Source: Corynespora cassiicola | Lineage: Eukaryota; Ascomycota; Dothideomycetes; Pleosporales; Corynesporascaceae | Assembly (NCBI GenBank): GCA_022059125.1 | Contig: JAEUWY010000009.1 | Location: 1 to 64,000 of the forward strand | Reading direction: 5' to 3' | DNA length: 64,000 nucleotides | In this document: positions 246-53,150 of the stretch, piece after piece | Layout: the number at the start of each line of letters is the position of its first letter | How positions within the stretch are numbered: the first letter of the stretch is position 1 | Program-made: the position numbers and the translations under genes | The notes under the pieces: model-generated | What the model saw: the letters and a program-made list of their open reading frames with translations, nothing else | Databases searched by the model: none | What the model was told of the DNA's origin: nothing

Positions 246-306
246 CAAGGTCAAGGCCAAAATCGGTCGGCCGTCATCCCTGCACATAGTGGCAAGATCT
301 CGCCAC
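246..306 (+). repeat. Terminal motif, outer left end of the NLR pair unit
   Basis: The motif starts CAAGGTCAAGGCC, then has GGTCGGCC and CATCCCTGC, and is followed by an inverted pair GTGGC (289-293) and GCCAC (302-306). The same motif in reverse ends at 13460, so the two face each other as terminal inverted repeats of a 13.2 kb unit. It lies 180 bp past the ancestral stop codon of the adjacent NLR. Related copies are at 15653, 21146, 25382, 28943, 38484 and 53089. I saw no clear target-site duplication in the flanks. Confidence 0.75.
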
Positions 307-425
307 AAAGTACTGAAGGCGCTGTTACATATCATGAGTAAGCATTAAATTACGATTTATTTACTTCATGTAAGCCGATCTCGTGGGTCTTAGTGACACA
401 TGAAGAAAGTGCTATTCTGGGAAAG

Positions 426-2488
426 TTAAATTGCGCCTGCTTTGCGTAGCAGCTCTGCAATGTCTTTGTGGCCTTTGTATGAAGCTGCCTGGAGCGCGTT
501 GCCGTAGACTCCACCCTGGGCGTTGACATCGGCGCCCGCCTTGACCAGCAGCTCTACAATGTCTTTGTGGTCTTTGTATGAAGCTCCCTGGAGCGCGTTG
601 CCGTATCCTCCACCCTGACGTTGACATCGGCGCCCGCCTTGACCAGCAGCTCTGCAATGTCTTTGTGGCCTTCTTCTGAAGCTGCGTAGAGCGCGTTGCC
701 GTATTCTCCACCCTGGGCGTTGACATCGGCGCCCGCCTTGACCAGCAGCTCTGCAATGTCTTTGTGGCCTTTGTATGAAGCTGCGTAGAGCGCGTTGCCG
801 TAGTCTCCACGCTGGGTGTTGACATCGGCGCCCGCCTTGACCAGCAGCTCTGCAATGTCTTTGTGGCCTTCCGCTGAAGCTGCGTAGAGCGCGTTGTCGT
901 AGTATCCACCCTGGGCGTTGACATCGGCGCCCGCCTTGACCAGCAGCTCTGCAATGTCTTTGTGGCCTTCCGCTGAAGCTGCCTGGAGCGCGTTGCCGTA
1001 GCGTCCACCCTGGGCGTTGACATCGGCGCCCGCCTTGACCAGCAGCTCTGCAATGTCTTTGTGGCCTTCTTCTGAAGCTGCGTAGAGCGCGTTGCCGTAT
1101 TCTCCACCCTGGACGTTGACATCGGCGCCCGCCTTGACCAGCAGCTCTGCAATGTCTTTGTGGCCTTTGTATGAAGCTGCGTAGAGCGCGTTGCCGTATT
1201 CTCCACCCTGGACGTTGACATCGGCGCCCGCCTTGACCAGCAGCTCTGCAATGTCTTTGTGGCCTTTGTATGAAGCTGCCTGGAGCGCGTTGCTGTACCA
1301 TCCACCCTGGGCGTTGACATCGGCGCCCGCCTTGACCAGCAGCTCTGCAATGTCTTTGTGGCCTTCTTCTGAAGCTGCGTAGAGCGCGTTGCCGTATCCT
1401 CCACTCTGGGCGTTGACATCGGCGCCCGCCTTGACCAGCAGCTCTGCAATGTCTTTGTGGCCTTCTTCTGAAGCTGCGTAGAGCGCGTTGCCGTAGACTC
1501 CACCCTGGACGTTGACATCGGCGCCCGCCTTGACCAGCAGCTCTGCAATGTCTTTGTCGCCTCTCGCTGAAGCTGCCTGGAGCGCGTTGCCGTATTCTCC
1601 ACCCTGGACGTTGACATCGGCGCCCGCCTTGACCAGCAGCTCTGCAATGTCTTTGTGGCCTTTGTATGAAGCTGCCTGGAGCGCGTTGCCGTATTCTCCA
1701 CCCTGGACGTTGACATCGGCGCCCGCCTTGACCAGCAGCTCTGCAATGTCTTTGTGGCCTTCTTCTGAAGCTGCGTAGAGCGCGTTGCCGTATTCTCCAC
1801 CCTGGACGTTGACATCGGCGCCCGCCTTGACCAGCAGCTCTGCAATGTCTTTGTGGCCTTTGTATGAAGCTGCCTGGAGCGCGTTGCCGTATTCTCCACC
1901 CTGGACGTTGACATCGGCGCCCGCCTTGACCAGCAGCTCTGCAATGTCTTTGTGGCCTTTGTATGAAGCTGCCTGGAGCGCGTTGCTGTACCATCCACCC
2001 TGGGCGTTGACATCGGCGCCCGCCTTGACCAGCAGCTCTGCAATGTCTTTGTGGCCTTCTTCTGAAGCTGCCTGGAGCGCGTTGCCGTATTCTCCACCCT
2101 GGGCGTTGACATCGGCGCCCGCCTTGACCAGCAGCTCTGCAATGTCTTTGTGGCCTTCTTCTGAAGCTGCCTGGAGCGCGTTGCCGTATTCTCCACCCTG
2201 GACGTTGACATCGGCGCCCGCCTTGACCAGCAGCTCTGCAATGTCTTTGTGGCCTTTGTATGAAGCTGCCTGGAGCGCGTTGCTGTACCATCCACCCTGG
2301 GCGTTGACATCGGCGCCCGCCTTGACCAGCAGCTCTGCAATGTCTTTGTGGCCTTCTTCTGAAGCTGCCTGGAGCGCGTTGCCGTATTCTCCACCCTGGA
2401 CGTTGACATCGGCGCCCGCCTTGACCAGCAGCTCTGCAATGCCTTTGTGGCCTCTCGATGAAGCTGCCTGGAGCGCGTTGCGGTATCG
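426..2488 (-). repeat. Array of 21 ankyrin-coding 99 bp tandem units
   Basis: Twenty-one units of 33 codons follow the pattern NALxAASxxGHKDIAELLVKAG. They are almost identical in DNA. Variation is concentrated at the residue after the GG pair (E, W, G, V, R, Y, D), at Q/Y after NAL, at the two residues after AAS (EE, YK, AR, AE, SR), and at V/A/T before Q. The inverted sister array has 16 units. Confidence 0.93.
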
Positions 2489-5328
2489 TCCACCCTGGGC
2501 GTTGGCGTCAGCGCCCTTGTTGAGCAACAATTTAGCTGACTCTTCCAACCCTCCAAATGCTGCATAGTACAATCCTGATGCTGGTTCCCTACCGTAGCCT
2601 CTATGAAAGTTCTCGTCTGGACGGTAAAGACTATAGCAAATCTTGTATGAACTGCTCTGAGAACAGAAGAGCCTCTCAATCAAACCTATTATTTCGCCGC
2701 TTTCGTGTTGAGCTGCACGAGCATGAGACATCCAGAACATTGCACAATATTCTGCGAACGGAAACTCTTTTCGTATCGTTTTCAACGGAAGAACTTGGTT
2801 GAAATGTAGCAAGTATGCCAGACATGCCCTGGCGACAGATGCTCTCGCAGCACTCTCTCGCAAGACTTGAGCTGTATCACTATCCAGTCGATCAGAAATC
2901 AGGTATTCCTTGACTGAAAAGTGTGCTAGTTGAAGCTCCATGTGTGTATCTTCGTTCTCACCTTTGACCGAGACCATAACCACCAGGCTCGAGCAGTAAC
3001 GCGTGATCTCCTGGGAATCAGGCATTCGATTCTTAGAAGAGAAGTATGGACTTCCGTCAACGTTGACCGCTATCGCGTCAACAGCTTCTTCAAGCCTCAA
3101 AGGTCGCTCGGAAAATGTTAAAAATTGAAGGATCCTCAACGCGGGTTTTTTGCAGCCTTCTGGAATGGCATTCAATATCCTCGCATAGGTCTTATCTAAT
3201 GTTTTTGGGAGCGAATCCAGCGCAGTCCTGAGGGTGGGGTAGTCCAAGCAGCCCTCCAGAACATCAATCTGGCACGCTACCCATCGGAACCTGTTCAGCA
3301 TTAGCACTGGTGTTGATAATGCAGATAAAAAAAGGCAGAGATTCTACTCACATGCCGTCGGCCTTTTGCGCAAGCCCCTCCTCAATCTCTTTCTGAACAT
3401 CTTGATGACCCCGCCATCTCTTCAGTCCTTCGCCCTCCCTGACTTTAGCGTGAATGTATGCCAGGATATCGTTATTAACAAGGTCGCTCTTGATAGATAC
3501 TCTGTTATTCTCACTAACTAGGCCGTCCATTTCTGACTGAATATCCTGCTCTTGCCGACTTGTCACGAGAAAGTGAACGTTCTTTTGCTCTAGCTCCACA
3601 AGATTCCGTATCCACAAAAGCAGGCCTTCCGTTGGGCTCCCCCTGCGTTCATGGCATTCGTCGATGGCATCTAGAACAATCCAAACCTCTCTAGTCCTCC
3701 TAATCATTTCCCGCAGAACCTTGCAAAGTGATTCGCAGCTTGGTTGCATATTTTTGTCCTTAAATGAAGAAAAGAGTGCATCTAACGGTTCCTGGGCACT
3801 CTTGCACGTATGATAAAGTTGGCTGATAAGAGAGCAGACTACACCTCTAAGAGTTTGCTTCTCGCTATCGGTAAAGTCAAAGTAGAAGTAGAGGAGGGGT
3901 TGGGTGGAACGACTCTTGAGATGTTCAATGATAGTAGAGCTAAGGATGGTCTTGCCGCATCCCGCTATACCATAGAGCCACAGGAAAGAATTTCTTTGCG
4001 ATTTCCATGTCGTAAATGCTTCGCTCTGCAAGAACCAAGATCCTGTACCTTCTTGTCGCTGCTGCAGCGCTTTGTTGTAGTTTGCTGATGGCTCAGGTGG
4101 TGACAGCCAGCGATGGAGCTCTCCTTGACGCTGTTCAACGACCAAGTCTTCTACACCACGACGTACTTCGTACACGTTTTTCTCAACTACTATTACATTA
4201 ACTAACATCTAGATTCTCTTAGACAAACTGACCAGAAGATAGGACATCGCTGATTCTCCTCTCAGCCTCTACCTTGTTGACCGGAATACGGTTCAGGAGA
4301 TCTTTTGCATACGCAGCCGCCGTCATGGCTGCATAGCCTTGCCAGTCTTTGTTCTTATGCGTGTCAGAGTAGTCGCAGATGCCGCGAATCACCAGGCACG
4401 GGAAGTGGTTCATCAGCCCAGCTGCTTCCATCTCGAAGCACAGCACGCCGTTTTCCTTGGCAAACTTGTCGCGAAGTAGAGCATCCTTCATCAATTGGTT
4501 TGCAGAAGCCACTATGCCATAATGGATTGCTGGATTGTCGTCATCTTGAGTCCTGGGGTTTCGCGGAACAAACTTGGAAGGATCATTGCCACAAACTTCA
4601 GCACAGGGCGCTTCGTCGTTGACAGGATGCTTCCATCCACCGAGATAAAGGCTGTCGGTTTCTGGGTCCGGTCGCTTGTACTTTTTCTTGAGGCGTGGGA
4701 TCTTTTCCAAAACGTTATTGATATCCTCCTCTAACCGATGGCCATGTAGTTCATACTTTGCCTCAAGGTCTCCGACTGCCGTCGCTAATACCATCGGTGG
4801 CTGATTCAAGTGTCCCGTTACCTGGAACTCCTCTCCCTCGATTGTCTTGCCAAAGTCGTACTGAAACACCCCACCTTCCTTGCTGTAAGGAGTACTGACT
4901 ACAATGTCGCCCAGACGAATGTCATGCTTAGAGCTTGGGGCGCCGCCGCCGATGCCAACCATCAACCCGATTCTGACATTGGGAAATGTGCGGAGCATGT
5001 CTCTTGCGACGTTTGCCGCAGAGGTCGTGCCATACACGCCCTTTGGCAGAACAGCGATAACAACGTTATGCTTGCCTATCTCGCCAAGTGTGTAGCTGTT
5101 GTTATCGTTCACGGGGGCGGACTCTGGTGGGTCGTGGGTTGCGTCGAGGTAAGCTTGAGCGGCGACGTACTCGGTGGTGATGGCGCAGATCCAGCCGACG
5201 GTATAGTCTCCATTTCCACGCTTCTGTTGCGATATGGCCGGCTGAGCTCCTTCCGGCTCCTGGCCCTCAAGCCTCTTTCTTGGATGTGAGGTGTCATGGT
5301 CTTCGCAAGCGGGCCGTTTCGTAGGCAT
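426..5328 (-). CDS. PNP_UDP-NACHT-ankyrin NLR protein, frameshifted near its C-terminus
   Basis: Likely a cytosolic STAND/NLR sensor of the fungal non-self recognition type. Exons: 4233-5328, 3352-4186 and 554-3290, with introns of 46 and 61 bp whose mirror images are in the 8872-13280 copy. The start at MPTKRP is where the two copies resume matching. An N-terminal nucleoside-phosphorylase-like domain (GIGGGAP, FEMEAAG, GICDYSD motifs) is followed by a NACHT ATPase with Walker A GIAGCGKT (about residue 438) and Walker B LDAIDE (about 537). Then come about 19 ankyrin units of 33 residues in frame. One C is missing at about 616 (GTCAGGG where other units have GTCCAGGG). The frame therefore ends at 554 with a short foreign tail instead of two more units ending at 426. 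The protein may still work; its ligand is unknown. Confidence 0.85.
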
Positions 5329-6251
5329 CCTGGCGTCGGGGAAGTAACCACTGCGCCAAACTTCGAGCGTGTCTAGCTTGTTCAAGGCCGTGCAAACCGA
5401 AAGATGCGGGATCTGGTGAAGAAATGGTGGCAACCCGGTACAGCAGAGGTTCTTCGAACACTCGATGGCAGCGATGCAGACCTGCAGCCCTGAGCGTGGA
5501 GAAGGGTACTCGGACGGGAAGGCGCTGTAGACGTCTCTTGAGAGCCGTAACGTTAAGACGCGATCACGACGAATCTGTTTACAAATGAGTAGGAAAGTAG
5601 GATGACTGTTTCAGCTGCGCGAGCGGGTCGAGGCAGCCTGTGTAGCTAGGCAGCACCTGCGAGATCAAAGCCGCTTGGGCAACACAGCTGAGGCCTTGTG
5701 CGGGCTGGGTTCAGCTGAACAGCATGGCTTCATGCAGTCTGCCACCAATGCCCAATAGCATGCACGCACCGCCGATGCATGCCAACAGAGAGCGAAAAGG
5801 CTATGCCCCCGCCCCGTCGCAGCGCGTCGCGCAGCCGCAGCCCGCAGCCCACAGCCCTAGCAGCGACCCTAGCAGTGGTTCTGGCTGGGGCGAGACTTGT
5901 GCGAGCGGTGCGAGCGGGCCGTCCATGGGTCGCGCGCACAACGCAAGCTGAAGTGATGGGGCACCTTGCAGGACTGGATGGGCGGTAGTGCGGCTGGAGG
6001 TGGAGCCGCACAGGGGAGGCTAGCGTCTTGAGAGGATCATCTCCATTACTAAGCTTGCCGTGCGATGGTGAGAATTTAACTTGCTGAGGGCAGCGATCTA
6101 CGTTAACCTGGAGCGGACCACTGTCCATATCCCTTTCTTTTCTATCTCTTTCAAGGCCTGCCTCATATGTGAATGCCTATCGATACTGCACAGTTCTATC
6201 AGGCTTTGGTTCTACAGCAATACTGATTGCTTCTTAAGCTCAGTGTTTACA

Positions 6252-7752
6252 ATGGCTATCATCCAATCTCTTGCAACAGTACTAGAATATCACTGTGAGC
6301 CCAAAACTAGTCATTGCATATCTGGTTCAAGCTCCTGACATTCTTTTAGCCGTGACTGGGACGTGGACATCGCGAATCTTAGACCTTTTGGGTCAGGATG
6401 TGACCCTACCAAAAGTGTGCTACGTGTGAGATAAGATAATATCGTTTACATACAAACCACTCATCTAACCAAACGTCCCAGTTTCCTAGAATCTGGTGAT
6501 TGGTACAAGAAGCATTGCTCCGCATCCGAGCGCAAGAAGATATTAGCGCCATTTCAAGTGCCAGACTTTCTCTGCAACAAGACTTGCACCGATCTCAATG
6601 GTTACTTTGGTTCTGAGAGCTCGTTTGTCTCCAACGATGGCGGAGAGAGCAAGCTTCAGAGTCTTGGTGTGTTATTTGTTGTTCCCATGATCGGCAATCA
6701 GCTTATCATTGAGTTACTAACCCAGGCACGTGGTTTAGAATCCTCACCAAGAAAGTTTTGAAGTCGGATGAGAGGAAAACAGACGAAGGCAAAGACTACC
6801 TCTGGTATGAGATGGGTTTCTTCACACGGTGGAACAGTTCGAGCACCTGCAGGGTCTTGTGCATCGGGACACCACGAGAGGTGACTGCCGAGCTTAAGGC
6901 TCTCCTCACTGCACCTCAGCCGCCGAGTTTTGAGTTCGAAGACCCTTTAGCAATACTCCGACCTCTCTTCGACGAGATTATAAAGCTGTGTGACGAAAGT
7001 ACACGGCGTGTGACTGAATCAGTCCGCGCCATCGAGCTTGTATGATGCCTTCAATACAATCCTCATCTGCTTGAGCGCTGACACTGTGTTTTCAGAATAG
7101 GAAGGAGAGGCCCGATTTTGAAGGATTACGCAATCTAGCGCGGCATACAGGGCACCTAGTAGAAGTAGAACAAGTCGCCATTGAGACGATAGAACAGCTT
7201 GTTCATCGACAAGAAAGCAACTTCGAACATCTGGGTGCACTCACCAAGACATATCAGGTGCAAGCAAGGGAATACCTGCTATTTCAGCTGCAGACGATGA
7301 AGAGCCTGAGGTGGCGTGCGCAGTCCACCCATGACCGGTTGGAAGAGGAGATTACTCTGGTAACGCACTTACCTGATGAGTCACGTCGTATGCGTGGTCA
7401 GAGCTAACTAAGCCATGTAGGCCTACAACATGCTTGCGAGCTCTGATAATGCTGTCATGAAATCTATTACTCTTCTGACGATGATCTTCCTGCCAGCGAC
7501 CTTTATATCGGTAAGCATTGCGAACATGTGCGGCCCAGTTTCCCAAGGTACTTATCTATGCTATCTCAGGCACTCTTCAGCACCACATTCTTCTCCTTTT
7601 CAGAGGATGGGTGGCAGTTCTCCCACAAATTCTGGGTCTATTGGGTGGTTGTCATTCCTTTGACTATTGTCGTACTTTTTGGCTGGTGGTGGTGGCTTGG
7701 AGGATCATATGAACTCATTCGATCTCGACGGTTGCACGACCGAAAAGGATAA
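6252..7752 (+). CDS. CorA-like divalent-cation transporter family protein
   Basis: Seven exons join in frame: 6252-6294, 6350-6425, 6482-6666, 6726-7039, 7096-7359, 7421-7510 and 7570-7752, giving 384 residues. The C-terminal half has the long helical region of fungal CorA-like proteins. Two membrane spans follow, around LLTMIFLPATFIS and the tryptophan-rich segment near the end. The classical CorA GMN signature is not visible at the first span, as is common in fungal relatives, so magnesium transport itself is not assured. The start Met is the least certain part because the frame stays open upstream. The gene lies in the spacer of the NLR inverted repeat and is present once. Confidence 0.75.
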
Positions 7753-8279
7753 ATGTTCCTGTTCGTCAGTGGGATTACTAGGACGTGGTTATCATAATGG
7801 AAGAGATTAGCTGCATTTTCAACTATTAAGCCAACTTTGAATGCCTGACAGAAAGTACCGGGCAGATGTGCCAGGAGATGGGTAGCACCTTAGTCGCCTG
7901 CCTCAATAGCTTATATTGCGAGAATTTAGCAAGCAGTTATACTAATTCGCTCTATTCAGTCCTAGCATTCTAGCTAACTAGACCTGGCCCACCGTGATAG
8001 TGCCGTGATCCTCCCAAACCAGAATATTTGCCCGGCGCGATTTCTGCATACGAACTTCTGTGGGAACATCACAGGGTCGTAATGAAGTTCGTATTCAGTC
8101 GCAATAACCATGGAATCAATCATGCTCCACTAGCGAAGCTAACGTACGTGATAAGCGAACGGGCCAGACAACGGACAGGCCGCCTCTAGCTCACCTCGTC
8201 TATGCCTTTGAGCAATTCCGACTACGCTGGTGGTGGATGCGACCGGCTGGTCTTGGCAAAAGTGGCCTGTCCGTTGTCT
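7753..8279. other. Gene-free spacer right of the CorA-like gene
   Basis: No supported gene was found. The right inverted-repeat arm starts at 8280. The segment CGGACAGGCC at 8171-8200 is echoed in reverse near 8265, a short local inverted repeat. Confidence 0.5.
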
Positions 8280-8871
8280 GGCCCGCTCGCACCGCTCGCA
8301 CAAGTCTCGCCCCAGCCAGAACCACTGCTAGGGTCGCTGCTAGGGCTGTGGGCTGCGGGCTGCGGCTGCGCGACGCGCTGCGACGGGGCGGGGGCATAGC
8401 CTTTTCGCTCTCTGTTGGCATGCATCGGCGGTGCGTGCATGCTATTGGGCATTGGTGGCAGACTGCATGAAGCCATGCTGTTCAGCTGAACCCAGCCCGC
8501 ACAAGGCCTCAGCTGTGTTGCCCAAGCGGCTTTGATCTCGCAGGTGCTGCCTAGCTACACAGGCTGCCTCGACCCGCTCGCGCAGCTGAAACAGTCATCC
8601 TACTTTCCTACTCATTTGTAAACAGATTCGTCATGATCGCGTCTTAACGTTACGGCTCTCGAGAGACATCTACGGCGCCTCTCCGTCCGAGTACCCTTCT
8701 CCACGTCCAGGGTTGCAGATCTGCATCGCTGCCATCGAGTGTTCGAAGAACCTCTGCTGTACCGGGTTGCCACCCTTTCTTCACCGGATCCCGCATCTTT
8801 TAGTCTGTACGACCTTAAACGAGCTGGACATACTTGAAGTTTGGCGTGGTAGTTGCTTTCCCAGTGCCGGG

Positions 8872-11800
8872 ATGCCTACGAAACGGCCTGCTTGCGAAGA
8901 CCATGACGCCTCACATCCGAAAAAGAGGCTTGAGGGCCAGGAGTCGGAAGGAGCTCAGATGGCCATATCGCAGCAGAAGCGTGAAAATGGAGACTATACC
9001 GTCGGCTGGATCTGCGCCATCACCACCGAGTACGTCGCCGCTCAAGCTTACCTCGACGCAACCCACGACCCACCAGAGTCCGCCCCCGTGAACGATAACA
9101 ACAGCTACACACTTGGCGAGATAGGCAAGCATAACGTTGTTATCGCTGTTCTGCCAAAGGGCGTGTATGGCACGACCTCTGCGGCAAACGTCGCAAGAGA
9201 CATGCTCCGCACATTTCCCAATGTCAGAATCGGGTTGATGGTTGGCATCGGCGGCGGCGCCCCAAGCTCTAAGCATGACATTCGTCTGGGCGACATTGTA
9301 GTCAGTACTCCTTACAGCAAGGAAGGTGGGGTGTTTCAGTACGACTTTGGCAAGACAATCGAGGGAGAGGAGTTCCAGGTAACGGGACACTTGAATCAGC
9401 CACCGATGGTATTAGCGACGGCAGTCGGAGACCTTGAGGCAAAGTATGAACTACATGGCCATCGGTTAGAGGAGGATATCAATAACGTTTTGGAAAAGAT
9501 CCCACGCCTCAAGAAAAAGTACAAGCGACCGGACCCAGAAACCGACAGCCTTTATCTCGGTGGATGGAAGCATCCTGTCAACGACGAAGCGCCCTGTGCT
9601 GAAGTTTGTGGCAATGATCCTTCCAAGTTTGTTCCGCGAAACCCCAGGACTCAAGATGACGACAATCCAGCAATCCATTATGGCATAGTGGCTTCTGCAA
9701 ACCAATTGATGAAGGATGCTCTACTTCGCGACAAGTTTGCCAAGGAAAACGGCGTGCTGTGCTTCGAGATGGAAGCAGCTGGGCTGATGAACCACTTCCC
9801 GTGCCTGGTGATTCGCGGCATCTGCGACTACTCTGACACGCATAAGAACAAAGACTGGCAAGGCTATGCAGCCATGACGGCGGCTGCGTATGCAAAAGAT
9901 CTCCTGAACCGTATTCCGGTCAACAAGGTAGAGGCTGAGAGGAGAATCAGCGATGTCCTATCTTCTGGTCAGTTTGTCTAAGAGAATCTAGATGTTAGTT
10001 AATGTAATAGTAGTTGAGAAAAACGTGTACGAAGTACGTCGTGGTGTAGAAGACTTGGTCGTTGAACAGCGTCAAGGAGAGCTCCATCGCTGGCTGTCAC
10101 CACCTGAGCCATCAGCAAACTACAACAAAGCGCTGCAGCAGCGACAAGAAGGTACAGGATCTTGGTTCTTGCAGAGCGAAGCATTTACGACATGGAAATC
10201 GCAAAGAAATTCTTTCCTGTGGCTCTATGGTATAGCGGGATGCGGCAAGACCATCCTTAGCTCTACTATCATTGAACATCTCAAGAGTCGTTCCACCCAA
10301 CCCCTCCTCTACTTCTACTTTGACTTTACCGATAGCGAGAAGCAAACTCTTAGAGGTGTAGTCTGCTCTCTTATCAGCCAACTTTATCATACGTGCAAGA
10401 GTGCCCAGGAACCGTTAGATGCACTCTTTTCTTCATTTAAGGACAAAAATATGCAACCAAGCTGCGAATCACTTTGCAAGGTTCTGCGGGAAATGATTAG
10501 GAGGACTAGAGAGGTTTGGATTGTTCTAGATGCCATCGACGAATGCCATGAACGCAGGGGGAGCCCAACGGAAGGCCTGCTTTTGTGGATACGGAATCTT
10601 GTGGAGCTAGAGCAAAAGAACGTTCACTTTCTCGTGACAAGTCGGCAAGAGCAGGATATTCAGTCAGAAATGGACGGCCTAGTTAGTGAGAATAACAGAG
10701 TATCTATCAAGAGCGACCTTGTTAATAACGATATCCTGGCATACATTCACGCTAAAGTCAGGGAGGGCGAAGGACTGAAGAGATGGCGGGGTCATCAAGA
10801 TGTTCAGAAAGAGATTGAGGAGGGGCTTGCGCAAAAGGCCGACGGCATGTGAGTAGAATCTCTGCCTTTTTTTATCTGCATTATCAACACCAGTGCTAAT
10901 GCTGAACAGGTTCCGATGGGTAGCGTGCCAGATTGATGTTCTGGAGGGCTGCTTGGACTACCCCACCCTCAGGACTGCGCTGGATTCGCTCCCAAAAACA
11001 TTAGATAAGACCTATGCGAGGATATTGAATGCCATTCCAGAAGGCTGCAAAAAACCCGCGTTGAGGATCCTTCAATTTTTAACATTTTCCGAGCGACCTT
11101 TGAGGCTTGAAGAAGCTGTTGACGCGATAGCGGTCAACGTTGACGGAAGTCCATACTTCTCTTCTAAGAATCGAATGCCTGATTCCCAGGAGATCACGCG
11201 TTACTGCTCGAGCCTGGTGGTTATGGTCTCGGTCAAAGGTGAGAACGAAGATACACACATGGAGCTTCAACTAGCACACTTTTCAGTCAAGGAATACCTG
11301 ATTTCTGATCGACTGGATAGTGATACAGCTCAAGTCTTGCGAGAGAGTGCTGCGAGAGCATCTGTCGCCAGGGCATGTCTGGCATACTTGCTACATTTCA
11401 ACCAAGTTCTTCCGTTGAAAACGATACGAAAAGAGTTTCCGTTCGCAGAATATTGTGCAATGTTCTGGATGTCTCATGCTCGTGCAGCTCAACACGAAAG
11501 CGGCGAAATAATAGGTTTGATTGAGAGGCTCTTCTGTTCTCAGAGCAGTTCATACAAGATTTGCTATAGTCTTTACCGTCCAGACGAGAACTTTCATAGA
11601 GGCTACGGTAGGGAACCAGCATCAGGATTGTACTATGCAGCATTTGGAGGGTTGGAAGAGTCAGCTAAATTGTTGCTCAACAAGGGCGCTGACGCCAACG
11701 CCCAGGGTGGACGATACCGCAACGCGCTCCAGGCAGCTTCATCGAGAGGCCACAAAGGCATTGCAGAGCTGCTGGTCAAGGCGGGCGCCGATGTCAACGT

Positions 11801-13280: not shown

Positions 13281-13399
13281 CTTTCCCAGAATAGCACTTT
13301 CTTCATGTGTCACTAAGACCCACGAGATCGGCTTACATGAAGTAAATAAATCGTAATTTAATGCTTACTCATGATATGTAACAGCGCCTTCAGTACTTT

Positions 13400-13460
13400 G
13401 TGGCGAGATCTTGCCACTATGTGCAGGGATGACGGCCGACCGATTTTGGCCTTGACCTTG
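13400..13460 (-). repeat. Terminal motif, outer right end of the NLR pair unit
   Basis: Reverse complement of the motif at 246: it ends GGCCTTGACCTTG at 13460, with GGCCGACC just before. The spacing from the NLR stop codon (180 bp) equals that on the left side. Confidence 0.75.
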
Positions 13461-13735
13461 CGTAAGGGACAATGAAATATCTTATCATTAGATAAAAACG
13501 CAATTTGAGTGTGAGGGTGGTTGCATGGTTAACGATGGTGCCCGGGTCTAGCTCCCGTGGTGGGGCCCACTCCGTCAGGGTAGCGCGATCATGCCAGAGC
13601 GCGGAAATAACGCGTGCGCGTTCACCTGGCAACCACCAACAATCACGCTCCCTGCACCTGTTGTACCAACGCTTCTACCTTCGCTGCACAGCACACAGGG
13701 CTGCGATACTGGGCGATGCTGCATCGTATCCGACA

Positions 13736-38400: not shown

Positions 38401-38483
38401 TCCACCCAATCTACAGATGCTACTGTACAGTAACATTATTTTCCGTGCCTCAAAGCAACGAGAAACACCGCATCCTACCTTGA
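35115..38483. repeat. Right arm of second palindrome, two secreted protein genes
   Basis: Reverse complement of 28944-32312. The region 36770-38483 mirrors 28944-30657 and holds no convincing gene. A short coding-like stretch at 36905-37083 (MNIAGKTLIIAQKREAGF, then LEELVGELGIPEELALGG) would need a one-base shift or an unseen splice. Confidence 0.95.
36319..36769 (+). CDS. Cysteine-rich small secreted protein, right copy
   Basis: Exons 36319-36359, 36410-36554 and 36647-36769 give 102 residues, identical to the copy at 30658-31108. TATAAAG is at 36231-36237. The final exon ends DYNGGGCPA before TAA. The CYC motif and six or more further cysteines suggest a disulfide-stabilised apoplastic protein; this is inference. 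Confidence 0.7.
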
Positions 38484-38545
38484 CAAGGTCCGGGCCAGAA
38501 TTGGTCGGCCACCCTCCCTGCGTAGAGTGGCAAGGACTCGCCATA
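38484..38545 (+). repeat. Terminal motif beside the fourth NLR
   Basis: CAAGGTCCGGGCC, then TTGGTCGGCC and CCCTCCCTGC, followed by a partial GTGGC/GCCA pair. The following 120 bp match the 3' flank of the first NLR pair (TGTTACATATC, AAGTAAGCAT, GCTTTGCGTAGCAG). The first 13 bases also belong to the symmetry of the palindrome ending at 38483. No partner end was found to the right. Confidence 0.75.
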
Positions 38546-38661
38546 CCCCACTGAAAGTGCTGTTACATATCCTAAGTAAGCATGAATTATGATTCTTTTA
38601 CTTCGCGTAAGCCCATCTCCTGGTTCTTAGTGACCTGCGAAGAAAGTACTATATGAGAAAG

Positions 38662-42517: not shown

Positions 42518-44553
42518 AAGGAGGTGCCTGATCTACAGTGCTAACCGAGGTAGGAATAGTACTACATCGTTAACCCATACCGTGATATTATTAAAGGTGG
42601 CACGTTGATCACCAGGGAATATGGTAATCGTGCACAAGTTTCTTCCAGTCGTCCAAGTCAGAAAAACATACTTTGAGAGATCACGAATAAAGTTTTCGGC
42701 AGCCATATTGTCTAAAAACCAGAGGACGAATCGTTGTCAAAAAGAGAGAGCCGATGAAACCCTCGCGATTTTGACCATGATAGCTACATCAGTGTGTCGC
42801 TTATGTCGTGTAACATTTACACGTCACTGTAAGCCAATTATTTGGCGACACGAAGCTCTCGTTACATGCTATTTTTATTGAGCTTAGTACCTAGGCTATC
42901 GAACCACAGCGTTAGTAGCGGTAGAGCACAGGTCTAGGTATGGAAGCGGCGAAGTTGCTTATGACAAGGGGCAGCATGACACCATAAAGAACAGCGCGGT
43001 AGGCGAAGAAAGCGGTGGATGTGGAAATGAATAGTGCCGTGGAAATTTGTCGGGCGCGCAGCAGCGGGCCGTGATATCAGCCTATTTGGTACTATGTGGC
43101 GACCGACAGTCCGTCAAACAAAAATAATGATGAGCTGCCTTTGCTCTTTTACGATACCTTCGTATGCGTTATTTTGATGATGGCAATTCCATTCGCAAGA
43201 AATCGCTTACGTGTCTTATATCATGGCCATACTGTCGGAGGGGAATGACCTTTACCACGCGCCAACTGCACATCTCGCTCATCCATAGCTATACGAGGAT
43301 CGCCACCTCCACGATTTCTATCTGCTAACGATTTCAAAAACCCCCTTAAATAAGCCTTCGTTCAATATTCCGAGTAAGCTAACCTATATCCTCTCTACTT
43401 AACAGTGGAGGTACTCCAACCATCGCTGTTTTCTTCAGCACCAAGCGTGCCAATAGATAACCAGAAAAATTACTTGCAAGCTCTTCCATTTCATTATCCA
43501 AATTTTAGATTGCATTTATAAAGTTCCAAGCGGCGCAAATGTTAACAAAGCGTGCGTTTTTCTTGTCTGCTTCCTAGGCGGTGAAACTTTTCTCTTCATC
43601 AAATGGAAAACGTTATACAGTCTCCACTCGAAAAGCAGTCCGATCCTCATGTACTCTTTCCGCCTGAATCACGATTTATAGGATATCGAATTGAGAAGCT
43701 GTGGCCGGGAATTTCTTAGCAGAATGAGCACCGGATAGCAAATTTATCTAATGTCCATCATTACGTGTAAAGAGAGGGGCAAAACGGTCTATCACTCGCT
43801 CGTATTTTGTCGCGCGCGCTCAAGAGTCGCAGACGGTTGCGAAAGGATAGTATGCGTTGTAGGGAACGCCTTACGTCAGCTTTGATGGCCCTCCTGTGGA
43901 TAGTCGAAATATAGAGAATGACTGAGAGGTCCACGGTGAACCTCTCCTCTGCACGAGGTCGTTGACAGAGTAGCGCGGAGGTGGCACCTAGGTCATGCGG
44001 GGCAGTCCCGCACTGTGGCCATGAAAGGGGGCCTGCTATTTTTGTCAATTTTGCCGCCGAGCCGTCCAATCACATCAACCATTGCGTGCATAGGCCACTG
44101 CTCCAGGATAACGCCCAAGCACAGACCAGGTTTACCGCTCGTGGCTTGGAAGCGGACCCGTAGAGCCTATTGCGGCATTTCTGAGGCACGTTCTAGTCCC
44201 GACTCATATATTGAGACTCTGTGGCGGAAGAACATATCAAATTCTTTCCTTGCCTTTGCCACTCTTCTTTGCCATGCCACTTATTTTTCTTACCAGAGCT
44301 TTTGTTATACAGGTTATTACAGTAGTAAAATGTATTACTTGTACCAAACGTTCAAGCAAATCACGCGTGTGTACTTATCACGTGAGCTGACTATGTGTCT
44401 ATCTGTAGGCTGTTGCCTAGTCTCAACCTCCACTAGATAAACATTTTTGATCTTCTTCAACGTTGTAACCTCTCCGTATAACAGTTAATCTGCTTTGAAT
44501 CCAACGTATCATACATTTTGTCTGTTCTGCATACATGTTTTGAGCTGCCAGTT
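42518..44553. other. Long stretch without a recognised gene
   Basis: Mixed AT-rich sequence. Short open frames near 43760-44440 on both strands have no domain. Upstream of 44554 this includes the HET gene promoter. Confidence 0.45.
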
Positions 44554-46545
44554 ATGAGCGGAAAGTTTAAATATCAGAATCTCATACGCTCTAGGCGCGA
44601 AATAAGACTACTTGAGCTACTTCCAACAAGTCACCATCTGAGCAAATTTCGGCCCGCATGCCGGATTTTCCATGTCAGCCTCGATGAAAACCCGTCATTC
44701 TTAGCTTTGTCGTACGTTTGGGGAAACAGGAGTGACACAACGATGATATTAGTGGACAAGAGGCCTTTTCGAGTCACGCGCAATTTGTTCGAGGCAATAA
44801 TTAGCCTTCGAGAAACAGAGAAAACAACCATATGGATTGACGCCATTTGTATCAATCAGTATGATGATGAAGAGAAGGGATGGCAAGTCGGACTGATGGG
44901 CAAAATTTATCGACAGGCATGCGGGGTGCTTGCTTGGCTCGGAGCACCAGCGGAAAACAGCGATACAGTGATGGACTATCTCAACGTATTAGGAGGTAAA
45001 GCTGAAGTATGCGGCCTTCATACCGGACCTGGCGAGTGTATGCGAATATGGCGGGCGATGACGACAATGCCTTCGTACATGGACGATCCCCACAATGTCG
45101 TCTTCAAGATTTGGCTTGATGGGAGAGTGCTACCGGTGTCAAAGTATGCACTAGAACGCCTTTTACATTCTATCAGTGGCTGGGAGTCTCACAATCAACT
45201 GCTTCCTATAGCTGGTCTGAAGCGCCTCTTCCGACGAGCATGGTGGGGACGAGTTTGGGTTTTACAAGAAATTACGCTTCCAGAACGTGCTTACTTCGTT
45301 TGTGGGGCAAAAAGAATTACCCGCCGTAGATTTCGAGCTGCTTTCAACGCGTACTATGCCTTATGGTCAATACTGGCATTAAAAAAGCAGCAACAACCTC
45401 TAACATCTTATCACTGGGACATCATGTTCGTGGCATCGCATAGGACCCACGTCATGCTCTCAATGTCAAACATATATCGGACTGGGACTTTTCCATTAGT
45501 GGCATTACTTCGCGCAACATGTGTTGGAAATATACACCACCTTAAAGAAGATGGCTCCCAACATCTGGAATCGACTGACCCACGTGACAAAATATTTGCG
45601 CTTCTGGGCCTTGCAAGGGATAAAGAAAAATTGGAGTTATTAGGTGTTTTCCCAGACTACACAAAGTCTAAAGAAGAGATATACGCGACAACCATGGTTG
45701 CTTTGCTACAGCAAGGCTATATGTCAATGTTGTCACTCTGTGGTTTCTCTGGAAAGTCAAACGCCTGGCCTTCATGGGTTCCCGACTGGTCTCTACCTAT
45801 GAAAGAAACCTTGCAAGACGTTGAGCCTGATCATCTCACCTTACATCCTAAATTCAATGCATCTGGTTTAAAAACTGAAAGCCACGTTATCGTCTCGAAG
45901 AGAAGCCAAGGCTTTTCAAGAATTTCTGTCATGGGGAATATTTACGACAAAGTTCTTGAAGTCGGAGATGTCCCTAGGTTCCCCCCTACAGGGACATGTA
46001 TTTTCCCAATCGATTGGCTGTACGAAATCCTACGTCTCACCTACGACGCCAAAAATATCTACGCCGATTTCAGTGAGCGTTTGCAGGCGGTAGTACGATC
46101 GTCACATGCAGCTATCGGATACGGAGAGGATGTATTTCTGGAAAAAATCAGTCATTTTTCCAATGCTTTGCCTATCTTCAAGAGTGGACTTCCCAGTATT
46201 GAACGAAAGGACATCAAAAAGGATCTCCGGGGCTTCCTGGCCAATATAGAGACTGTACAGCTGCTCAGAAGTAAAGGGGCAGATCCATCTCAGCTCATGA
46301 GAGATCTAATGAGGATCAGCCCAAGACGATCACCATTTGTCACCGAAAAAGGGCACCTCGGTCTGAGTTCTCAGTATATCAAACCAGGTGATCTTGTTGC
46401 CGTGGTTGGAGGTGCACAGGTCCCTTTTATCCTCCGAAAGCGCGATAGCCAAAAGTACGAAATTATTGGTGAAGCGTACGTGGACGGAATCATGAATGGA
46501 GAGGCAGTGAAAGATTGCAAATGGGAATACGTAGAATTGGTGTAG
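44554..46545 (+). CDS. HET-domain protein (heterokaryon incompatibility type)
   Basis: Single exon, 663 residues, from the first in-frame ATG (MSGKFKYQN). The HET core spans about residues 30-200: FLALSYVWGNRSDTTMI, then IWIDAICINQYDDEEKGWQV and IYRQACGVLAWLG, followed by the WWGRVWVLQE motif near 230. Further on are STDPRDKIFALLGLA and YIKPGDLVAVVGGAQVPF, usual in long HET proteins. HET domains are TIR-like and can trigger cell death in non-self recognition. Here no partner domain is fused. The frame is intact with no sign of mutation. It lies near, but outside, the inverted NLR arms. Confidence 0.92.
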   Translation: MSGKFKYQNLIRSRREIRLLELLPTSHHLSKFRPACRIFHVSLDENPSFLALSYVWGNRSDTTMILVDKRPFRVTRNLFEAIISLRETEKTTIWIDAICINQYDDEEKGWQVGLMGKIYRQACGVLAWLGAPAENSDTVMDYLNVLGGKAEVCGLHTGPGECMRIWRAMTTMPSYMDDPHNVVFKIWLDGRVLPVSKYALERLLHSISGWESHNQLLPIAGLKRLFRRAWWGRVWVLQEITLPERAYFVCGAKRITRRRFRAAFNAYYALWSILALKKQQQPLTSYHWDIMFVASHRTHVMLSMSNIYRTGTFPLVALLRATCVGNIHHLKEDGSQHLESTDPRDKIFALLGLARDKEKLELLGVFPDYTKSKEEIYATTMVALLQQGYMSMLSLCGFSGKSNAWPSWVPDWSLPMKETLQDVEPDHLTLHPKFNASGLKTESHVIVSKRSQGFSRISVMGNIYDKVLEVGDVPRFPPTGTCIFPIDWLYEILRLTYDAKNIYADFSERLQAVVRSSHAAIGYGEDVFLEKISHFSNALPIFKSGLPSIERKDIKKDLRGFLANIETVQLLRSKGADPSQLMRDLMRISPRRSPFVTEKGHLGLSSQYIKPGDLVAVVGGAQVPFILRKRDSQKYEIIGEAYVDGIMNGEAVKDCKWEYVELV

Positions 46546-47364: not shown

Positions 47365-48839
47365 ATGGCGACCGCCGGCTCAGTGTGTCACCCACTAACA
47401 AACAGCAACACAGCGAGCGCACTCTCATGCTGCACATGCCATCAGGAAGCGCGTTTATGTATTCCTCCTGCGACTGATCCATGTTTGTTTAGCAGATACA
47501 TGCCTTACGAGTCTCTCCAGGTGCGGTCGAAGTACGATACACCTTCGCACAAAGATGGCGGGCAGAGTCTCCCGACAGACCTCAATCATCAAGTGTACCT
47601 GCGCCATCCAGGCTATAGCGATACGGGGAACATTCTGCTAGCTCTCCCTGCCTTGGATCATCCTCAGGGTGGTATTCATCACGAAACAGCACGGGTCGCT
47701 TGCGCCATTCTCGCCAATAACAGATGGGAGGGATTCTTGACGGAAACGAAGGCAGGGCCACCTGTCCAAGCAGGACCGGATGAGGTTCTGCGGGGAAAGA
47801 ACTACTATTTTGTAGTTTCTCGGGAGGATGCTGATGGTGAGCAAAGTGCGATTGCATGTATGCACACTTGCCTGCTGACAAGGTCATCTCAGAGAAATAC
47901 GCCGTTATCCCGTCCTTCAGCCACTGGCGCTTTCCTCACGATGATCTCCCCCGGTCGTGGACGTCATGCGAACCTCCTAAGCTTCCTCATGATAGACCGC
48001 TGCCCCGTCAAAGCAGCCTAGCCGAAGCGACACTGGCCCGAGACATCTCTTGTCGTATAACGAACCATATTGAGGGCACGGAACATGCACACTTGGTCCC
48101 ACGAAGCGAAGAGCGCTGGTTCAGCGAGAACGGCATGTTCCGATACACAAATCAACAGCGGCCGGGGTCTGAGCCAGTTGATGATGCTCAGAATGCTATG
48201 CTCCTCCGTTCGGATGTTCACACGATCTTTGATCAGAAACGGTTTGCTGTGGTTCCCAAGAGCTCAACCCTCCTCGTCCACATTATGGCTCCCGGATCTT
48301 CACTAGAACTTATAAACCTTTATCACAACGTATCGCTGCAGCCGCTCGTTGGTGTCGCAGTCCAGTATCTTCTAGCTCGATTTGCCTGGACCATCTTTGC
48401 GCACTCAATCAACTTCATACAGCAGGGCTTGAAGCGAACCCTGTGCATCCGTGTTGGTGATGGAGAGACGAGCACCAAGGAGTTTTCAGGAGAACAATGT
48501 AGGCAGCTGTTCATCCCGAGGCCCAAATCTCGGAGCCAGAGCCCACGAAAACGACAACGTGACGCTTTCTTACCGCCGCCAGAAGAAGAAAATGACGAGG
48601 AGTATATCAGGGGCCGCAAGAGAAGACGTAGCTCCTATTCCTCAACACCGAATACATCGTTCGATGAAGAGCTGTGGACGACGTCACAAGATACTATGTT
48701 GGACTCGGATCCGGAGGCTGAAAGCGGGGATAGAACCACGAGCATTTTTGGCGGTGAGGACAAGCCATCCAAAAGCCAGTTTCTGGCCGGATCTTGTAAC
48801 GAGCGCGTTCCTGAAATGGGTTTGATCGTGAGAACATAG
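47365..48839 (+). CDS. HNH nuclease domain protein
   Basis: Exons 47365-47836 and 47893-48839 (intron GTGAGC...TCAG, 56 bp) give 472 residues. The C-terminal half carries the fungal HNH_2-type core: CRITNHIEGTEHAHLVPRSE, then DDAQNAMLLRSDVHTIFDQKR, with the histidine pair and asparagine of the fold. The N-terminal 130 residues include a region typical of the same fungal proteins. The last about 120 residues are charged and low-complexity with KRQR and RGRKRRR stretches that may direct it to the nucleus. Such proteins are frequent in accessory regions of ascomycetes and their substrate is unknown. Confidence 0.82.
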
Positions 48840-49038: not shown

Positions 49039-49041
<3 letters not shown>

Positions 49042-49128: not shown

Positions 49129-49130
<2 letters not shown>

Positions 49131-49432: not shown

Positions 49433-52400
49433 TCAGATCGCGGTAGATGGTATTTCCAGCGCTCTTCGCTCGTTGTCTTCCTCTTCTTCGCGTGCTTCGT
49501 CTTGGTCGTGGCCCGAAAGCCGTCCTGTATCCTTTGCAAACTCGATCGTCGCCCTCACAGCGCCCATGTCTGGCCTCCATTGCTCAATAGGCCCGTCTAT
49601 GCTCTCGTCCCCTTCCTGCCTGCTCGAGTAGCCTCCCAGCGCATACGAAAGATCTCCGAATCGCTCTCCGTGCTGCTGCCTCATCTTTGTCCTTGCCTGC
49701 GTCCACCGCCTGCACGAGAATAGGAAGTGCGCGACCGATTCTATGAGTCCGCATTCGCATGCTGCCGTTTCTTCTGCTTGGATCTTATACAAGTACGCCT
49801 TGAGGAAGCTCTTGCCCGTTCGTAGCTGCGTGAGGATCGCTGCCTCTGCGCTTGTCAGCTGCTGGTACATCCCAGCCGACAGGCCTAGATGAAGCGCTGC
49901 ATCAATCTTCCGGGTGAATCTGCCTATATCCTCTCTGCCCACCAGAGGTGGTCCTTCTGTAGTTCCTGTTCTTTTCAGCGCCAGTCGCGATAGGTACCAC
50001 GGATGTCCGTTTCGCCTCGGCGGCTCCTCGCTCTCCATTCTTGTTGCTGCTTTCGCCAGCTTGTGCGCTCGTTCATTGCCTTGAATCTCGACATGTCCGG
50101 GAACCCAGTACAGTGTGACTTTGGTCATCCGTAGCTTCTTTATGATCTCCGTCACCACCTCTTGACACGCACCCGCCCTCCAGCTTTGTATCGATAGCAG
50201 CGCCGACTGCGAGTCCGAGAAGATCCGCAGGCTGGACGCAGCTATCGGCCGTCCATCCCTGTCGCGGGCTGTGCAGACTGGACTCCATGGCCAGTTGGCC
50301 GCTTCGTCGATCGCCAGCAGCTCGGTGAGATGAGGGTCTGCCTGGTCCGGGCTGGCTACAGTTTTCGAGATACCCGCGCGGCTGGGCAGCGTGTAGATGC
50401 CGACTCCGGCTCGTCTGTTGCGCACCGACCCGTCGACGTAGATGTCCGCCTGTCCGGGCGCTCGATCTTGAATAATGGCTTCCGCATGCTCTTTGTCCTT
50501 GCACAGCACCACCTCGGGCCTGGCCACCCACGGCGGACACGCATACGCCTTCACCTCCATCACCTCGTCCATCTTGACCTCCTCGCACATCTCTGCTATC
50601 CGCTGAAGCGGCGATCGGTGCCGTCTGCACAGCCTCTGCCGTCGAAGCATCCAGTGCGGATGCGACTTCCCTAGTTTGTGGATCGAGACCCAAAACGCGA
50701 TCGCTTGCTTGCGCAGTCTCTGCTCGAGCGGCAGTAAGCCTGCTTCTACCTGCGCAATCGTGAGTGCCACCGTGCGGAAGCCTCGGATGACTGCTTGCGC
50801 TGTGATTCTTTGTGCCTGCTGGAGCAGCTGCATCTGCTCATGCGCGATGAGCGGAAACCATATCGGCGACGCATAGTCGGCCACCGGCAGTACCGCGCTT
50901 ATCGCCAGCTGTTTGACTGTCTTTGGCGGAAGCCCTTTGAGTCGCCGCAGAGCCAGCGCTACCTTGGTCGCTTTGCCTGCCTTGTCTGCGAGGTGTGCCT
51001 TGAACCGCAGCTCTTTGTCGAGTGTCACTCCGAGAATTCTGACTTGGTCCGTCGGCTCGATCTCGCTTCCCTTGAACCGGAGCGGCGCAGTGCTGTCCCG
51101 GCCTGCGCCTTTGTATCGCGTGAGGTGGATAAACGACGTCTTAGCTGCCTCAAACTGTGCCCCGCTCGTTCGCTCCCATCTTTCCAGCATCGGTACCACT
51201 TCGTCTTGGATGATCCTCGTGTTGGCGTCTGCTGACGGCCCCACGACCCACGCCGAGTAGTCATCGACGAACGCCATCGGACTGCCATTCTTGGGTGCGC
51301 TCTGCACCAGATCTGCGTTGAAAAACAGAAAAAGGATGGGAGCGAGTGCTGATCCTTGCGGAAGCCCAGCTTGCGGGAGTTCCTGCATTGCCGACGTGAA
51401 GCCGTTGACGAGAATGCACGCCTGCCGGTCCGTGCAAAAGTCTTGCACCCACCGAACGATCGTCTCAGGGATCTGTCGCCGCCGCAATCTTCTGATTTCT
51501 GGGCCTGTAGCCACGTTGTTGTACGCGCCTTTGACGTCGAATGACACTAATGACAGCGTCTTCATGCCTCTCCACGCCCTGAATATGTCCTCGCAGAGGA
51601 ACGACAGCGCGTGCGTTGTCGACCGCTGCTTCCGTGCTCCAAAGTGCGTCTTCGGCAGGAGATTGTATTCCTCCACCAGATACGCGATCCTCTCCGCTAC
51701 TACCGACTCCAACGCCTTGCCCAGCGTGGGCAGGAGCGAGATGGGCCGGTAGTTGTTTGCGACGGTGTAGTCTTTGCGTTTCGGCTTTCGCAGCGGCACG
51801 ATCTTAGCCACCTTCCATTCGCATGGTACTTTGCCAGTCTCGAGCGATTTGCTGAAAAGCAGGGTGATCTCGTCCTCCAGGACGGGCCATAGCTCTCTCC
51901 ACACTCGTGCCGGCAGCCCGTCTCTGCCCGGCGCCTTATCTGGACTAGCCCGGAAGACGGCCGCCTTGACTTCGTGTTTCGCGACTGGCTCCCACGGCAG
52001 CTGGCTGTATGTGCTTGGGCCATCTTCAGGTTCACACGGCGGCGGGATTGGAAAGAAAGCTTGGAGCAGCTCCTTTGCTATGTCCTCGTTCTCCGTCACC
52101 GTCTCCTCGTCTTGTCCGGCTTTCTTGATGGGCGGCACTCTAGCAAAGGACGAGCCGGCTTCCGAGTCCAGGTACTTGGCTGCCTTCCATATGTTGTCGT
52201 TGTCGCTGAGGAACTCTTCCCAGTGTTGTTTCCTGTGCTGTCGGATTGTCCGGTGGAAGAGTCGCTTCGCTCGTGTTGCTGTGTTGCGTACCTCTGCGTC
52301 TTCGCGGCCTTGCCTCCGCATCGCGCATGCCCGGTTCCTCCAGTACGTATACGACTTCCTCAGTACTGTAAGGTTCTCATCGCACCACCGCTAGTTGGAT

Positions 52401-53088
52401 TACATTCTCAGTATATCTGCCTAATAGGCAGAAGCGCCACAGGGGTAACTGCCTACTAGGCAGCGAGTGGTGCTAGGCGGGTGGAGCAATGTCTAGAACT
52501 ATAAGATGTTCATAGATCTCACTCATAGAATAAAGCTTCACTTGTTCCTAGCTCAGATCTTCAACTCCGCTTCATATACGGTGAAGGCCGAGCCCGCGGG
52601 CAGTGTGCTTCTAGAGCACGGCTGGCCCATGCAGTAAGTCGGCTCGCCATGTCATCCACGTCCTCTGTGGGGAAGCCCTCCTCTTTCTGCCGCTCAACTG
52701 CCTCCCTGATCTTGTCCCACGGCGCATTCTTGAAGAGCAGCCTTTCCGAGACCTCTTCTCTCTCTATATCCATGTAGAAGCTCGTTCGGATCGCTCGGTG
52801 GTCTGATCCGTATTCATTCTCCCAGATGGAGCATTTGGCCAGTTCGCTTGCCAGTCTGGGCGTCGCGAGCATCAGATCGATCGTAGACCTGCGTCCTGCG
52901 TCGCTCACAAATGTCGTCTCTCCTACCGGCAGCAGACTCTGTAGCGACAGGTCTGCCATGAGGTCGATGATCGGCTCGCTCTTGTCCTGCCTCGGCGCAT
53001 TGGCCACATGCACTCCTCACCACAGCGGATGGTGTCGATTGAAGTCGCCCGCAATCACCACCTCTATGTGTGGATCGAAAAGTCATCG
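49433..53088 (-). mobile_element. Degenerate Tad-like LINE (endonuclease, RT, RNase H)
   Basis: On the minus strand. An AP-endonuclease part (52567-53060) reads VVIAGDFNRHHPLW, then a TGA, then STIDLMLATPRL and GSDHRAI. After the inserted LTR, the frame 49433-52392 is open, with WWCDENLTVLRKSY, the RT motifs AGLPQGSALAPILF and FVDD, an RNase H domain (YVDGS, FSDSQSAL, WVPGHVEIQGNE) and a C-terminal CECG...H...C zinc-like motif. The 5' end, with any ORF1, is cut by the terminal motif at 53089. The endonuclease stop and both insertions mean it is not autonomous, although the RT frame is intact over about 980 codons. Confidence 0.92.
52393..52566. mobile_element. Solo LTR, 174 bp, inside the LINE
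   Basis: Termini AGTTGGATTAC and CTTCAACT form a short inverted repeat. The flanks are a perfect 5 bp target-site duplication CCGCT (52388-52392 and 52567-52571). It contains mirrored CCTAATAGGCAG and CCTACTAGGCAG segments. It interrupts the LINE exactly between the endonuclease and RT parts. Length and 5 bp duplication fit a small Ty1/copia-type LTR left by recombination; terminal bases differ from the usual TG...CA. Confidence 0.78.
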
Positions 53089-53150
53089 CAAGGTCCGGGC
53101 AGGAAAAGGTCGGCCGTCATCCCTGCTTGCGGTGGCGAAACTCGCCTGGT
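53089..53150 (+). repeat. Terminal motif inserted in the LINE
   Basis: CAAGGTCCGGGC, then AAGGTCGGCC and CATCCCTGC, followed by GGTGGCGA and a partial inverted GCC. LINE coding sequence stops right at its first base. The motif points right, so the unit it belongs to would extend over 53089 onwards; no closing copy was found before 64000. Confidence 0.7.

Follow-up and report, generated by a model that had tools for sequence, protein, structure and literature searches.

The first 64,000 nucleotides of contig C9 (C9:1-64000, hereafter the window; the contig measures 124 kb) of a Corynespora cassiicola genome (44.35 Mb, 23 contigs) carry genes for NOD-like receptors (NLRs) between inward-facing copies of one terminal motif. 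We found that NLR genes, and probably secreted-protein genes too, are packed in such motif-bounded cassettes. Our preferred explanation, to which we give a probability of about 0.53, is that the window is cargo of a Starship-like element, whose cassettes have one inverted terminus and are exchanged at this shared terminal sequence. The results suggest that cassettes are moved or swapped exactly at the terminal sequence, which would be an unrecognised fungal route to reshuffle immune genes. One genome was sampled; its other contigs are denoted C1, C2, C3 and so on to C22. All genome-wide counts depend on a pattern derived from the window and on islands delimited by that pattern.

The terminal motif in the window

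The motif (consensus CAAGGTCnrGGC...GGTCGGCCGTCATCCCTGC) is terminal and inverted. All eight sites named in an earlier reading of this DNA (the original prediction) were present on the strands it gave, namely 246(+), 13460(-), 15653(+), 21146(-), 25382(+), 28943(-), 38484(+) and 53089(+). The three inward-facing pairs that it had described, around an NLR pair (W1), a single NLR (W2) and a secreted-protein palindrome (W3), were borne out. The units and motif copies are as follows.

246-13460, no strand: W1, divergent pair of NACHT-ankyrin NLR genes; arms about 93-98% identical, 2.36-kb spacer, motif at both ends
246-320, plus strand: terminal motif, left end of W1; 100% copies at 13460(-) and C6:2721188
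13386-13460, minus strand: terminal motif, right end of W1
15653-21146, minus strand: W2, single NLR gene (DUF7708, NACHT, ankyrin)
15653-15712, plus strand: terminal motif, left end of W2
21087-21146, minus strand: terminal motif, right end of W2
25382-28943, no strand: W3, palindrome with arms of 1739 bp (99.9% identical) and two copies of a small protein
38484-40563, minus strand: motif and NACHT-ankyrin NLR gene; right end of the unit not found
53089-53148, plus strand: terminal motif, no partner detected

In the window we counted 23 occurrences of CAAGGTC (8.4 expected) and six of GGTCGGCC (1.1 expected), both excesses being partly due to palindromes, which duplicate sequence. The latter string was expected about 18-20 bp into the motif; six of the eight sites have it (offset 19), and both ends of W3 read CGCCAGCC instead. 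The two ends of W1 are mutually identical over their first 60 bases, as are those of W3, and in both units the flanks are unlike; the ends of W2 have the motif in common only in part. All four NLRs had been placed 178-280 bp from a motif. This is true of the right arm of W1, whose last long open reading frame (ORF), the ankyrin ORF by its position in the arm, ends at 13280 (180 bp), and of the NLR at the 38484 site (38662, 178 bp). In the left arm of W1, in which frames are broken, the last long ORFs end 166-308 bp away (412, 426 and 554). The statement does not hold for W2, whose last long ORF ends at 16899 (1246 bp from the motif). A transcription terminator was rejected as a full account of the motif because it is found on both the 5' and the 3' side of single genes.

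The small protein of W3 looks secreted (judged by eye) and had no Pfam match; the terminus is therefore not specific to NLRs. W3 has a one-arm relative at C6:2814906-2816538. The idea that the palindrome is younger than this single-copy form was dropped because a DDE_1 gene lies directly beside the C6 relative.

Partner change at the motif edge

Different units can border on flanks that are almost identical, with the switch falling at the outer edge of the motif. W2 has a copy at C1:384317-389040 that aligns in two pieces (93% and 98%) reaching both ends; the copy is 770 bp shorter, the deficit lying within the ankyrin array, and no flank match was found on either side. The flank at the right end of W2, which is the left end of the interval 21147-25381, matches that of unit U1 (C1:126300-131772) at C1:126300 with 99.5% identity over 730 bp, and at the DNA level W2 and U1 share only the motif of about 60 bp. 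Units U2 (C1:328600-341267) and U3 (C6:2751072-2760935) have an interior in common (94-97%) and different flanks. Before U2 there is a second copy of the flank that ends at C1:374994 (99.7% over the 1.5 kb compared), and a further one, over 2 kb (98.6%), lies at C1:169069, directly before another nuclease module; at this joint of two flank modules only TTG stands between them, the last three bases of a cassette end. C2:4740237 and C1:495710 have flanks identical over 600 bp, differ in four of the first 12 motif bases and show no interior match. Flank matches that reach the junction keep a single orientation, and many outer flanks are themselves recurrent. Two cassettes are found, from end to end, at more than one site of the genome. 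Movement at the first base of the motif, which had been proposed as an inference, is thus supported by the W2 copy between unrelated flanks and by the partner change at the motif edge.

We compared the motif between 49 sites, the C3 and C22 sites having been removed beforehand. Over the first 12 bases the mean differences were 1.40 for pairs with the same flank and different units (30 pairs), 1.40 for unrelated pairs (1058) and 0.91 for same-unit pairs (85), these pairs being non-independent and the same-unit class including both ends of palindromes. Over the first 27 bases the values were 4.83, 5.42 and 3.34, respectively. Motif variation tracks the unit more than the flank.

Genome-wide distribution and pairing bias

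A 27-bp pattern of the motif was searched in the whole genome. It gave 42 exact places and 23 with one mismatch, that is, 65 at up to one mismatch, and at least 35 more with two mismatches; at up to three mismatches there were 268 matches against 95 for a reversed control. The 65 places lie mostly in a few islands: C1 95-510 kb, C2 4.74-4.82 Mb, C6 2.72-2.84 Mb, C8 1.35-1.38 Mb, contigs C3, C9 and C22, each of 116-124 kb, and C13 and C17 within their first 40 kb. Of the places outside the islands, C4 has two and C11 and C15 have one each.

Neighbours less than 16 kb apart among the 65 places, which were taken without selection by position, faced inward in 18 cases, outward in 14 and the same way in 10 (strand shuffling, P = 0.0005). 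Without C3, C13, C17 and C22 the counts were 16, 13 and 7 (P = 0.0004). When 18 two-mismatch places, picked by position or likeness, were added, they became 27, 19 and 9, and 27 inward pairs were reached in none of 100,000 shuffles. The resulting 83-site set consists of the 65 places, 17 two-mismatch places in islands and a lone one on C16; another 17 two-mismatch places were left out (16 outside islands, plus C6:2791588 inside), of which C2:2318792 may be a real motif. This pairing bias counts in favour of our preferred reading.

Gene content and symmetry of the inward units

We counted 27 inward units, six of them on C3, C13, C17 and C22, which are partly duplicate contigs. A match to PF24883 (NPHP3_N) was present in 18 of the 27, and 27 of the 110 NPHP3_N loci of the genome lie within units, which make up 0.49% of genome bases. 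Most units hold genes for NLRs, or signal transduction ATPases with numerous domains (STAND), of differing architectures, often as near-identical divergent pairs whose symmetry begins at motif base 1. By Pfam scans of single ORFs, W1, W2, C2:4754483 and U4 (C6:2774758-2784948) are NACHT-ankyrin; C2:4764247 is HET-NACHT-WD40, as is C2:4771000 by its NACHT and WD40 parts; C1:374995 is HET-NACHT-ankyrin; and U3 and C6:2835386 are NB-ARC/NACHT-TPR. Nine units, two of them on C13 and C22, have two PF24883 loci, which are divergent in eight and convergent in C1:97085.

Of 17 units read whole, nine form palindromes over all or part of their length: W1, W3, U2, U3, U4, C2:4740237, C6:2888521, C1:97085 (older, 77-89%) and C6:2721188 (in part). 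Arm identity within the unit is 96-98% in U2 and 98% in U3, compared with 94-97% between U2 and U3. Arms of one unit thus generally resemble each other more than U2 resembles U3, and a further process, inverted duplication with conversion, is needed to account for the palindromes. The proposal that palindromic pairs hold a transposon in their spacer was true only for C1:97085-109042 (DDE_1) among six spacers compared.

Ankyrin arrays with 99-bp units occupy 353-2631, 16946-18037 and 38685-38984 of the window. Most 300-base windows of the W1 array are 87-99% identical; the left-arm array contains a single step of 98 bp, and towards the end of this arm the long ORF is interrupted, whereas the right-arm ORF is open. 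The spacers of W1 (5921-8279) and U4 hold similar-looking ORFs in the single-copy middle of the NLR palindromes, possibly, as judged by eye, for a membrane protein of CorA type.

Outward intervals and flank modules

There are 19 outward intervals shorter than 16 kb, and 16 of them measure 1.8-5.1 kb. PDDEXK_12 nuclease genes were found in the intervals C2:4751988, 4761085 and 4768610, C1:372716, C6:2832315 and C1:379265, and a fungal-type kinase in C1:341268. Genome-wide, a motif is found no more than 10 kb from 18 of 19 PDDEXK_12 loci and from 10 of 15 fungal-kinase loci, and no locus of either kind is inside a unit; the other five kinase loci are weak or broken matches. Nuclease and kinase were not found together in one protein among the one kinase ORF and six nuclease-matching ORFs scanned (exons unjoined). 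For a neighbouring kinase, the top match was from Lepidopterella palustris (70% identity); the most similar named relative belongs to Corynespora cassiicola and has 92% identity across 60% of the query. The named relatives are ascomycetes, mostly with names that we take to be Dothideomycetes. The neighbouring kinase gene may be mobile. In the window, the outward intervals include:

13461-15652, plus strand: interval with a DUF7924 gene (ORF 13505-15292)
21147-25381, no strand: interval with an RNase III-like ORF (23184-23717)
28944-38483, no strand: W4, 9.54-kb palindrome, arms of 3369 bp (99.97% identical), motif outside both ends (outward)

The right end of the second interval is 91% identical over 1.5 kb to the flank of C1:131772. 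The own ends of W4 begin with TCAAGGTAGG, close to the first bases of the motif, and two W4 ORFs that were scanned gave no Pfam match.

A Starship-like frame

Starships are described, in sections of PMC12506042 and PMC12134995, as giant transposons with a DUF3435 captain at the 5' edge and accessory cargo including NLR and DUF3723 genes. Captains are known here from ORFs and domain matches. Six DUF3435 loci were found genome-wide, all of them inside the islands or no more than about 120 kb away, and those on C1, C2, C9 and C22 lie within 27 kb of a motif. On the window contig the captain (C9:67078-68123, minus strand) lies 3 kb past the window, is the first gene at a 5' edge (about 69583) and points inward. 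The same 5' edge recurs at C2:4736461 and C1:491476; on these three contigs, where edges were examined, the captain copies have this edge in common and unrelated upstream DNA. The captain module on C1 and C2 ends at a motif junction. The motif sites of the 83-site set are all downstream of the captain in five of six contigs; C1 has sites on both sides. The five DUF3723 loci, on C2, C3, C6 (two) and C8 and none on C9, are in or beside the same regions; with the NLRs of the window they make up accessory genes typical of Starships.

The 5' target of C2 and C9 (TTACTATCTATA, TTACTAACTATA) fits the TTAC-N7-A site, but the surrounding DNA is AT-rich and contains further strings of this kind. With their DUF3435 and DUF3723 genes the islands are Starship-like regions, a cautious term chosen because no 3' end of a giant element was located. 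They resemble Starships in the common captain edge with unrelated upstream DNA, in the motif array downstream of it in five of six cases and in the DUF3723 and NLR genes nearby; they differ in that the cargo lies in cassettes with one common inverted terminus and in that 3' ends and direct repeats were not found here.

The cassettes can also be compared with ToxTA/ToxhAT, a non-autonomous passenger transposon that sections of PMC12506042 place within the Starships Sanctuary and Horizon. Both would be gene-carrying units with inverted ends nested in a Starship. However, the same sections report for ToxTA both target duplications (TA) and an empty site, neither of which was found here, and here a single terminus serves many different genes. 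Clustered NLRs in Sordariales (part of PMC12258605) and Spok-type nuclease/kinase killers on Starships (part of PMC12693581) are similar in their NLR clusters and in nuclease and kinase genes as Starship cargo. Cassette termini, however, are not described in those parts of the two papers, and unlike in Spok, nuclease and kinase occupy separate ORFs here.

Target sites, transposases and alternative explanations

The absence of a clear target duplication in the original prediction agrees with our result. Among 17 units compared for duplications of 1-12 bp, a 2-bp match was seen in three against 2.19 expected from re-paired flanks (P = 0.38), and none was longer; duplications are thus not above chance. 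For 13 joined flanks, no uninterrupted copy across the joint was detected, 40 of the 76 candidates having been scored. A single query extended beyond its joint, by 23 bp, at C1:169069, where the TTG joint links other partners; flank copies at C1:495710 and C6:2747954, which are outside the motif list, adjoin degenerate motifs.

It had also been stated that no transposase is present. This is right insofar as DDE_1 had no match on C9; the window does, however, hold a reverse transcriptase (RT) ORF (49433-52321), and the DUF3435 recombinase lies just past its end. DDE_1 matches fell in three distinct units. One gene (C6:2891540-2893365) is inside a motif unit between its own 65-bp inverted ends (83% alike), and another (C1:101774-103474) is inside a motif unit, in the spacer of the old NLR palindrome C1:97085-109042. 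A full-length transposase-bearing element with the motif termini, which the original prediction had looked to, was not found in the DDE_1 and hAT searches, the two families covered; the hAT search gave no match, but its control was also silent.

In our preferred reading, a nuclease or recombinase would cut at or within the CAAGGTC edge and rejoin the ends, and cassettes would thereby be exchanged between captain, nuclease and kinase modules in a shufflon-like manner. Divergent near-identical NLR pairs would probably arise by inverted duplication and conversion between arms. As candidates for the enzyme, and no more than that, we name the captain tyrosine recombinase and the PD-(D/E)XK proteins encoded in neighbouring modules. 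With so little variation in the first motif bases, a recombinase with a short core would look the same as a cut placed precisely at base 1.

The main alternative is that the cassettes are non-autonomous terminal inverted repeat (TIR) DNA transposons, moved in trans by a transposase encoded elsewhere and inserting preferentially beside certain modules, with duplications lost or of 0-2 bp. We regard this as somewhat unlikely. It would explain the shared inverted termini with their sharp outer edge, a feature of TIR transposons that is present here, the end-to-end copies of units at new places, a weak flank preference (CCATCR) before motif base 1, and the TTG joint, which resembles a 3-bp footprint. 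However, target matches are at chance, no empty copy was seen among the 40 of 76 candidates scored, and members of one flank family meet different units at an identical base. In addition, there is no clear nesting in the ordered site list (pairing used neighbours only), and one of the DDE_1 genes has inverted ends of its own. Cassette exchange is preferred over classical transposition because duplications are missing and flanks recur. The earlier picture of cargo units with shared termini is supported, but not as ordinary non-autonomous TIR transposons. Some probability stays with a transposase, given the joint with TTG between two flank modules, the slight preference for CCATCR and an empty-site search that covered 40 of 76 candidates.

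An explanation by ordinary homologous recombination within a repeat-rich island, together with unequal crossing-over and gene conversion, seems quite unlikely; the motif would then be a conserved intergenic element that has survived. Near-identical arms and repeat arrays do indicate homogenisation, some contigs have long identical stretches in common, and motif bases 1-27 are slightly more alike between same-flank pairs. However, variants of the first 12 bases do not track the flank at all, crossovers within a motif of 27-60 bp should give chimeric motifs, and W2 has both flanks changed. Homologous recombination within the motif is thus disfavoured by the 49-site comparison.

Assembly artefacts as the source of palindromes or duplicate arrays are very improbable: the arms of U4, W3 and W4 are indeed 99.9-100% identical, and the C3, C13, C17 and C22 arrays repeat or resemble parts of C2 and C6, but the arms of W1, U2, U3 and C2:4740237 differ by 1.5-6.5%, the W1 flanks are unlike, and the pairing bias persists without those four contigs.

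Several points weigh against cassette exchange within a Starship-like element. No recombinase is tied to the motif, and since its first bases hardly vary, a crossover cannot be placed within them. The TTG kept at C1:169069 also fits excision by a transposase, and scores were obtained for only 40 of the 76 empty-site candidates. Over 27 bases same-flank pairs are slightly more alike than unrelated ones, the pairs being non-independent. From the captains on C6 and C8 the nearest listed motif is 118 and 61 kb away, respectively, C1 has many motif sites upstream of its captain, and the missing 3' ends belong here too.

Other features of the window and contigs

The window had no tRNA match (bacterial model) and no Rfam match. 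It contains a HET-domain gene (44518-46545), an HNH_2 ORF (47856-48839), an AnmK-like kinase piece (54525-55556) and a fungal transcription-factor stretch (55793-57113), which has a 96% copy over 1.3 kb behind the motif of C1:155349. The RT ORF includes an RNase H part, and 1.5 kb of it has a 96.5% copy at C8:1362940-1364429 that stops 11 bp outside the motif at C8:1364440. On C3 (119 kb) two 1.5-kb flanks of C2 are repeated at 100%, and its DUF3723 locus has a score like that of C6:2673 kb. As C3 carries its own DUF3723 locus besides the C2-identical flanks, it may represent a mosaic copy in its own right rather than redundant sequence.

Implications

Bacterial shufflons are prokaryotic, rearrange small segments and have a known recombinase. 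The cassettes would resemble them in having inverted sites between modules and exchange without duplication, with orientation kept; they differ in that no such enzyme is linked to the motif here. A eukaryotic shufflon-like system, in which an enzyme recognises one border of 27-60 bp and exchanges NLR cassettes between captain, nuclease and kinase modules inside Starships, is an unlikely form of our reading. No published description of motif-bounded cassettes was found in the open-licence literature. To our knowledge, how Starships gain or swap cargo is an open question, and so is fungal NLR diversification other than by tandem duplication.

If the shared border marks the exact points of exchange, both Starship cargo swapping and NLR diversification become testable: the border can be searched, junctions can be counted between strains and the cutting enzyme can be sought. 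A shufflon-like system, if true, would be a mechanism of cargo swapping between Starships and would build new immune or conflict islands in which genes are kept whole.

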